Below the pieces are notes generated by a model that searched no databases, was not told the DNA's origin, and was given only the letters and a program-made list of their open reading frames with translations. A DNA stretch of 33,891 bases from Candidatus Brevefilum sp. (lineage in GTDB: Bacteria > Chloroflexota > Anaerolineae > Anaerolineales > Anaerolineaceae). The translations under genes were made by a program, and so were the position numbers. Where the stretch lies: the NCBI GenBank assembly GCA_029210815.1, contig JARGGB010000032.1, positions 1-33,891 of the forward strand. Reading direction: 5' to 3'. Each line of letters opens with the position of its first letter. Positions within the stretch are counted from its first letter, which is position 1. This document shows, piece by piece, positions 1,605 through 2,905 of this stretch.

Positions 1605-1679
1605 AAACAATAATGAGGAATGTCCCCAGGCATTTTTATCTGCAGTAGAAAATTTCATGACACAATTGGAGGAAAACAA

Positions 1680-2153
1680 ATGAGCAATAATCGTATTAAA
1701 GTTGATGAAAGGGCACGGGACTTCACCCTTGAAGATACCCATGGCAAGCCCGTTAGCCTTTCTGAATTTAAAGGCAAGAAAAACCTGTTCCTGGTCTTCA
1801 ACCGGGGTTTTGCCTGACCATTCTGCCGCAGGCACATGGCGCAGTTGCGCCAGGATTATAAAGATTTTGTCGATCGTGATACTGAAGTGATCGCCGTAGG
1901 CCCGGACTCCCAAAAAGCATTTGTGGACTTTTGGGAAGAAAATGAGATTCCTTTCATTGGATTGGCAGACCCGGACCACGAGGTGGCGAAATTGTATGAC
2001 CAGGAGGTCAACCTCCTTAAATTAGGCCGGGTTCCTGCCCAGATGGTCATTGACAAGCAAGGCATTGTCCGCTACATCCATTATTCCAACTCAATGTCTG
2101 ATATCCCTGACAATGTGGACATGCTCAATCTTATCGATGAGATAAACGGCTAA
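1680..2153 (+). CDS. peroxiredoxin-like selenoprotein (UGA-coded Sec46)
   Basis: A 157-codon AhpC/TSA-type thioredoxin-fold protein if the in-frame TGA at 1815–1817 is read as selenocysteine. The upstream part ends NRGFA and the downstream part continues PFCRRHMAQL in the same frame, giving a UxxC motif (U46, C49) where relatives carry CxxC. The downstream half has the usual features: VIAVGPDS, FWEENEIPFIGLADPDHEVAKLY, and GRVPAQMVID containing the cis-Pro. Its likely role is thiol-dependent reduction of peroxides or disulfides in the cytosol. The start ATG 1680 follows GGAGG with seven nt spacing. A hairpin matching bacterial SECIS rules lies just after the UGA. No selA, selB, selC or selD gene is present here, so decoding is inferred. 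The alternative is a nonsense-mutated gene or a sequencing error. Confidence 0.78.
1815..1852 (+). promoter_or_regulatory. UGA codon and candidate bacterial SECIS element
   Basis: TGA at 1815–1817 is followed by the stem TGGCGC (1837–1842) / GCGCCA (1847–1852) with apical loop AGTT (1843–1846). The loop starts after 25 intervening nt, and a G lies in its first two positions. This fits the published general description of bacterial SECIS hairpins bound by SelB (loop about 16–37 nt after UGA, G near the loop start). The hairpin is inside the coding region, as is normal for bacteria. Confidence 0.65.
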
Positions 2154-2200: not shown

Positions 2201-2905
2201 ATGAATGAGAACATCCTGATTGTGGGTGCCACCGGGAAAACCGGGCGTATCATCGTCCAAAAAATGTTAGACCGCGGTGACCAACCGCGGGTCTTTGTCA
2301 GGGATCAAGCCCTGGCAGAAAATTTGTTTGGCGGCAATGTCCAGGCGATTATTGGCGATGTGCGGCAAAACGAAAGCCTGTTGCCTGCCATGGATGGGAT
2401 CGATACGGTCATCTCTGCCATCGGTTCCCGCACACCTGTTGGTAAAAACTGCCCCAAACGCGTGGATTACCAGGGCGTTGAAAACATGGTCCAGGCTGCC
2501 GTGGATGCTGGCGTCAGGCGCTTTATTCTGATCTCTTCCATCGCGGTGACAAAACCGGGGCATCCAATGAATTGTTTTGGAAAAGTGCTTGAATACAAAC
2601 TAAAGGGGGAAGATATCCTTAGAAACAGCGGCATGGATTACCTGGTCATCCGTCCCGGGGGCTTGAAAGATACGGCGGGCGGGAAGAAAAGCCTGATCCT
2701 TGACCAGGGCGATCACATCATGGGCACCATCAGTCGTTCTGATGTGGCAGCATTGTGTCTGTTTGCCCTGGACTACCCGGGTGAACTGCGGTTAACCTTT
2801 GAGGCTGTTGAATCCGATGATGAGGGGCCGCAAAATTTAGCGGACTATTTCTCTTCACTTGCCAGGGATGAAACAGGAACCTCCCTTTCAGCGTCTATGC
2901 CTTAA
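2201..2905 (+). CDS. NAD(P)-binding SDR/NmrA-like protein
   Basis: A 234-residue atypical short-chain dehydrogenase of the NAD(P)H-binding (PF13460-like) type. The N terminus has the Rossmann motif GATGKTG at 9–15. Further signs are VISAIGSR after the third strand, VRRFILISSIAV (the serine region of the fold) and YLVIRPGGLKD, typical of this group. Members act as flavin/quinone reductases, epimerase-like enzymes or redox sensors, and the substrate cannot be told here. It starts 47 bp after the peroxiredoxin-like gene on the same strand with a modest AGGTG ribosome-binding site, so the two may be cotranscribed as a redox pair. Its 3' end overlaps that of the convergent metal ATPase gene by 11 bp. 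Confidence 0.8.
   Translation: MNENILIVGATGKTGRIIVQKMLDRGDQPRVFVRDQALAENLFGGNVQAIIGDVRQNESLLPAMDGIDTVISAIGSRTPVGKNCPKRVDYQGVENMVQAAVDAGVRRFILISSIAVTKPGHPMNCFGKVLEYKLKGEDILRNSGMDYLVIRPGGLKDTAGGKKSLILDQGDHIMGTISRSDVAALCLFALDYPGELRLTFEAVESDDEGPQNLADYFSSLARDETGTSLSASMP

Follow-up and report, generated by a model that had tools for sequence, protein, structure and literature searches.

The gene at positions 1680 to 2153 on the forward strand of the window (the whole 33,891-nt stretch of contig JARGGB010000032.1 that was analysed, from Candidatus Brevefilum sp.) almost certainly encodes a selenoprotein, with the UGA at 1815 read as selenocysteine (Sec). It is a well-supported new branch of the known peroxiredoxin-like (Prx-like) UxxC selenoproteins, rather than a new system, and this selenoprotein branch is widespread in Anaerolineales. 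The reading is settled by conservation across genomes and not by the lone hairpin that follows the UGA. The features concerned are as follows.

1668 to 1672, forward strand: Shine-Dalgarno-like GGAGG, 7 nt 5' of the ATG.
1680 to 2153, forward strand: predicted selenoprotein coding sequence, 157 residues with TGA as Sec, from ATG at 1680 to TAA at 2151-2153.
1815 to 1817, forward strand: putative Sec codon UGA (U46), first residue of UxxC, TGA in 32/32 close loci.
1824 to 1826, forward strand: Cys49 codon, partner of U46, invariant in 31/31 aligned proteins and aligned with the peroxidatic Cys of peroxiredoxins.
1837 to 1852, forward strand: predicted SECIS hairpin TGGCGC-AGTT-GCGCCA, with stem 1837-1842/1847-1852 and loop AGTT 1843-1846, inside codons 53-58.
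2201 to 2905, forward strand: next gene, a putative NAD(P)-binding (NmrA/SDR-like) protein, the family being read from a GATGKTG motif.

Translated with TGA as U, positions 1680 to 2153 form one frame that holds a single TGA and is ended by TAA, and the claim that the TGA falls on the first residue of a redox motif (FNRGFA-U-PFC), with both flanks in the same frame, was exact in its coordinates. The window protein matched PF00578 (AhpC-TSA) at 1.5e-28 and 99.7 bits (cut-off 26) and could be aligned over its full length with 30 relatives, the start being cut short in one. No NCBIfam model exceeded its cut-off for the window protein; the best match was to SelL/SelL-related (NF040769), which was matched by all 31 aligned members, but for the window protein at 74 bits, below the cut-off of 120. 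SelL itself carries UxxU, whereas the second active-site residue of the window family was Cys in 31/31.

Selenoproteins of this general kind have been described before. A Prx-like family in the Sargasso Sea set carries a thioredoxin-like UXXC in place of TXXU (PMC1088965), Prx-like 1, 2 and 3 with UxxC were described from the GOS data (PMC2398784), and Prx-like thiol:disulfide oxidoreductases have been predicted with high confidence (PMC13188914); these sources bear out the original prediction's remark that Sec use had been reported in peroxiredoxin-like families. As in these descriptions, the window gene combines PF00578, UxxC in place of the TxxU/C of peroxiredoxins, a single Sec and a downstream bacterial SECIS. 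The two features that define the family, PF00578 and a UxxC or UxxU site, are both present in the window protein, which was likened to published members by description only. Anaerolineae members are not mentioned in the portions of the published Prx-like UxxC descriptions consulted, and no description of this gene in Anaerolineae was found in the extracts of open-licence literature searched. For Chloroflexi, three selenoproteins of three families were counted in 2006 (PMC1794560). Within Anaerolineales, the relevant part of one source notes Sec for formate dehydrogenases, and reports that Anaerolinea thermophila encodes a Sec elongation factor with no dehydrogenase annotated with Sec (PMC4959059).

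The AlphaFold model of the product, built with Cys in place of Sec (pLDDT 92.3, pTM 0.89), places it in the peroxiredoxin fold, with strands formed before the UGA and a helix starting directly after it. The nearest solved structures were Bcp4 (Z 24.4; 152 residues at rmsd 1.6) and AhpE (Z 23.9; 151 residues at rmsd 1.7), tied within method error; the likeness to Bcp/PrxQ and AhpE is one of fold. A CPxC-like site, a thioredoxin fold and a sequence match of 6.4e-12 to a ResA variant also recall ResA/TlpA, but the TM score (query length) was 0.73-0.79 in the ResA rows listed, against 0.83-0.88 for Bcp1, Bcp4 and AhpE. Six residues (R42, U46, P47, C49, R117 and P119) were invariant in 31/31 aligned proteins, and in sequence alignments Sec46 occupied the Thr/Ser place of peroxiredoxins and C49 lined up with their peroxidatic Cys. 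Canonical peroxiredoxins carry PxxxT/SxxC, whereas the window family has R-x-x-x-U-P-x-C: the PxxxT/SxxC motif, with C or U at its last place, was absent in 31/31, R42 standing for Pro and U46 for Thr/Ser. The gene had originally been called peroxiredoxin-like, which stands for the fold (PF00578, with Bcp4 and AhpE as neighbours) but does not extend to a canonical peroxiredoxin.

We consider it likely that the product is a thiol-disulfide or peroxide reductase of the UxxC kind, with Sec as the attacking and Cys as the resolving residue. This oxidoreductase would consist of one domain of peroxiredoxin fold, the thioredoxin-like U46-P-F-C49 site lying at the helix start. U46 may attack an oxidised substrate, either a disulfide or a peroxide, after which C49 would resolve the intermediate as a selenenylsulfide and a thioredoxin-like donor would reduce it. 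The reverse order, a genuine peroxidase in which C49 attacks peroxide and U46 resolves, appears rather unlikely but is the strongest competing account. It is favoured by the alignment of C49 with the peroxidatic Cys and of U46 with the Thr/Ser of peroxiredoxins, by R117, invariant in 31/31 and aligned with an Arg in Bcp1, and by Bcp and AhpE being the nearest folds. However, the PxxxT motif, which shapes the peroxide pocket of peroxiredoxins, is absent, with R42 at the place of its Pro in all 31 proteins, and U46 would be left with the resolving role alone, though Sec is normally the attacking residue. The reading that U46 attacks and C49 resolves is therefore preferred.

Evidence that the whole frame is coding came from comparison of both sides of the UGA. 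Across nine pairs, dN was 0.035-0.28 downstream of the UGA and 0.039-0.38 upstream; because these values are low, and below dS wherever dS was finite, both sides are taken to be under purifying selection. The original prediction had stated that family motifs are kept on both flanks, and this was supported by the conservation of residues 1-45 and the UxxC site together with the selection on either side. The same data bear on the proposal that the real product is a 105-residue frame from the ATG at 1836, with the UGA merely ending an unrelated short frame. That frame is exactly what mechanical frame finding returns when it stops at UGA, a fragment without the active site, but relatives conserve residues 1-45 and the UxxC site in a single frame, upstream dN is below dS wherever dS is computable, and strands encoded before the UGA are part of the predicted fold together with the helix right after it; we regard this proposal as highly improbable. 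Selenoprotein genes such as this one may be easily overlooked by frame finding that stops at UGA.

To survey the codon in relatives, 61 genomes (the source genome and 60 relatives) were searched for matches at E 1e-15 or better, and 38 had one, at 54 places in total. Exactly one TGA was present in each of the 33 best-matching places, which lie in 32 genomes, and it stood at position 46 in every case (30 being L010-L039 and three L062-L064); L040 and L041 likewise had TGA at position 46, giving 32/32 close loci when added to L010-L039. Fifty of the 54 places were read (L010-L039 and 20 more), and the remaining four hold one TGA each. A further sample of 301 genomes from the phylum yielded 36 with a match at 1e-25. 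Of its 45 places, 30 were taken as loci, among which L082, L083, L085-L087, L089, L092 and L106 were repeats of earlier places. Some of the 15 places without a locus repeat those of the first search, while G104:C8 and G348:C14 are new and stop-free and were left out of the counts, which makes the number of Cys genes a lower bound.

Pooling the distinct 52-nt stretches (n = 71) gave TGA in 66 and a Cys codon (TGC/TGT) in five, so that codon 46, at which Cys or UGA had been expected in homologues, behaved accordingly. An in-frame UGA where homologues have Cys is one mark of a bacterial selenoprotein gene, and the window gene shows it. The pool had repeats removed (L041, whose coding sequence is identical to that of L011, and one further stretch identical over the 52 nt) and excluded both a decayed locus, L068, and 16 distant homologues (L042-L057; 27-37% identity). 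The latter, all peroxiredoxins, carry Thr, Ser or Ala at position 46; in six of the 16, with Thr or Ala at 46, U stands at the place of C49, which is the true Sec-type peroxiredoxin arrangement and unlike that of the window gene. The 66 UGA stretches include a second branch with FNIGFAUPHCTNH and a third, more distant, with FVREFNUMQC. In L079, L080 and L081, which belong to this distant branch (FVREFNUMQC or close variants), the hairpin occurs in a version with a 5-nt loop.

These counts weigh on the idea that the TGA arose from a Cys codon (TGC/TGT) by nonsense mutation, sequencing error or decay into a pseudogene. TGA is one base from either Cys codon, Cys homologues exist, and a decayed copy was seen in one relative, L068. 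Against this, the same TGA was found in 66 of the 71 distinct stretches, across several families of the phylum, and selection remains purifying downstream of it; its presence in dozens of separate genomes means that it is not a sequencing error. We therefore hold this idea to be barely credible. The decayed copy itself (L068; G013:C3:1523852-1524301) is a frame-shifted duplicate of the selenoprotein gene in which the SECIS hairpin is still kept. An apparent TAG had made it a candidate UAG-Sec gene, which was rejected once the frames showed a decayed, frame-shifted duplicate, and the locus was dropped from the counts.

The Sec machinery on which the original prediction depends was found in full in the source assembly (2.66 Mb, rated 96% complete): selA (520 bits, cut-off 268), selB (354 bits, cut-off 242), selD (334 bits, cut-off 125) and one tRNA-Sec (selC) over its cut-off at 69.3 bits, called by ARAGORN as tRNA-SeC with anticodon TCA. 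Conservation of the hairpin together with this machinery suggests that the hairpin at 1837-1852 would recruit SelB with Sec-tRNA(Sec), and that selenocysteine would be inserted at UGA 1815. That UGA is instead reassigned genome-wide to Trp, Gly or another residue is next to inconceivable, since an in-frame TGA within a conserved gene, its one point of support, is outweighed by the use of TGA as terminator in three of the 22 other main window genes (picked from the open reading frame list), by the presence of selA, selB, selD and tRNA-Sec, and by the Cys that close homologues without UGA have at this position. Code change, nonsense mutation and the 105-residue product were thus all rejected, on conservation, selection and TGA stops. 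The selD gene (L061; G000:C75:2143-3066) has one in-frame TGA of its own, at SSCAGUASK, and for this reason looks like a second selenoprotein of the genome; the fold of the stretch 3' of that TGA ends in a GCAG-GTC-CTGC tip, whereas the gene at 1680-2153 has an AGTT loop.

In relatives, a clear tRNA-Sec was taken as a match of 62 bits or more, a line drawn by judgement because matches of about 40-50 bits are widespread and resemble other long-arm tRNAs; four of the ten matches in the source genome itself lay at 37-47 bits. By this measure a clear tRNA-Sec was present in 28 of the 32 genomes that carry the close UGA form, the other four comprising G020 and G049 with none, G043 with 53.0 bits and G015 with 48.7 bits. 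When 33 genomes were examined again, 26 had a clear one (64 bits or more), and G020, G027, G037, G049, G051, G293 and G311 had none. Of these, G027 and G037 nevertheless contain distant UGA paralogues (of the FVREFNUMQC-type branch, L079-L081), and G293 and G311 each have a match with one TGA. Genomes without a clear tRNA-Sec may be incomplete assemblies with contigs missing, yet G037 is rated 99% complete. Cys homologues coincide with the lack of a clear tRNA-Sec in G037 and G051, a coincidence not used as evidence, since a distant UGA paralogue and an above-cut-off selB match were also found in G037.

Behind the UGA, the original prediction had described a 6-bp stem with an AGTT loop beginning 25 nt after the UGA and G in loop position two, all of which we found as described. 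The bSECIS model, as given in the relevant part of its source, has a loop of 3-9 nt, a stem of 4-16 bp, a G among the first two loop positions, a spacing of 16-37 nt and an MFE of -7.5 or lower (PMC13188914), and the window hairpin conforms to it, with its 4-nt loop, 6-bp stem, 25-nt spacing and hairpin energy of -10.8 kcal/mol. The window contains 1461 TGA triplets, counting both strands; a model-compatible uninterrupted Watson-Crick stem of at least 6 bp follows 34 of them (2.3%), rising to 185 (12.7%) when G-U pairs are allowed. The 18-nt hairpin alone gave a z of -4.44, and the 48-nt stretch folded no better than shuffles (z -0.95); given this last value and the two chance rates, the hairpin in a single sequence is weak evidence. 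A search of positions 1500-2300 against Rfam at E up to 5 returned only one chance match, of 16.1 bits, to a snoRNA model from nematodes.

At the level of synonymous codons, the hairpin predicted to direct Sec insertion is under visible selection in the Anaerolineales branch. The observed to expected codon entropy over 31 aligned genes averaged 0.49 for the nine conserved codons at 47-60 and 0.90 for the 57 elsewhere. Synonymous choice was frozen most strongly at residues 54-57 (ratios 0.11, 0, 0 and 0.30), whose codons are those of the hairpin, with GCG kept in 28/29 at Ala54, CAG in 28/28 at Gln55, TTG in 28/28 at Leu56 and CGC/CGT in 30/30 at Arg57. Outside the hairpin, codon choice was narrowed less strongly at F44 (0.47), R50 (0.42) and Q108 (0.49). 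Cys homologues do not retain the hairpin codons: among genes with Gln-Leu at 55-56, CAG-TTG was used by 49/49 with UGA and 0/3 with Cys (Fisher p 4.5e-5, with kinship ignored and a small Cys sample).

The hairpin occupies two positions in the family. In type A, which accounts for 47 of the 66 UGA genes including that of the window, the loop starts 25 nt after the UGA, whereas in type B (15 of 66) it starts 16 nt after, 9 nt closer, with AGTT in the loop of 12 of the 15; four genes fit neither rule. Assignment to a type required at least 5 of the 6 pairs to form, a rule made for this analysis, so the paired percentages lean towards structure; with this bias 279 of 282 pair cells hold in type A (98.9%; n = 47) and 6/6 pairs form in 15/15 of type B, typically as GCGCGC-AGTTG-GCGCGC. 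In type A, three of the six pairs showed a change on both sides, in one sequence each (0/500 shuffles). Six slid controls paired in 17-66% of cells, the +3 control having two double-change pairs at 41% pairing. Folding of the 52-nt stretches gave a lowest-energy structure that contains the hairpin for 38 of 47 sequences in type A and 14 of 15 in type B. In L110 (G245), the Arg57 codon has become a Cys codon and the opposite stem base has also changed, so that pairing is kept at the expense of the residue.

The protein differs between the two types at the same sites. Type A has His52 (47/47), Met or Leu at 53 and Gln55 (47/47), and type B has Gln-Leu (n = 13) or Ser-Leu (n = 2) at 52-53 and Arg55 in 14/15, the codons of Ala54 and Arg55 forming the 3' arm. 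On the tree, whose bootstrap had not converged, 14 of the 15 type B genes fall in one well-supported clade and L063 lies beside an odd member, L039, so that two changes of the type B label are required. In this tree L111 forms a long branch, and the L105 protein is cut short by a further stop. It seems somewhat more plausible than otherwise that the SECIS moved within the coding region and that the RNA signal dictates residues of the active-site helix. The RNA element may have moved first and the protein followed, an order that we offer tentatively. The family provides a compact natural data set on a coding-region SECIS that constrains, and shifts within, a protein.

The putative NAD(P)-binding gene adjoins the selenoprotein gene in 10 of the 11 same-genus loci (L010-L020) and was matched in none of the 19 loci outside the genus (L021-L039; up to 1.5 kb on each side), which makes this mainly a genus-level neighbourhood rather than a fixed partnership; a partial match was found in L064. 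In L040 (LGGY01000181.1), under the title Marinimicrobia bacterium 46_43, the selenoprotein gene occurs as a copy of 92% identity with the same downstream genes; this is probably an Anaerolineaceae contig that was binned or labelled wrongly.
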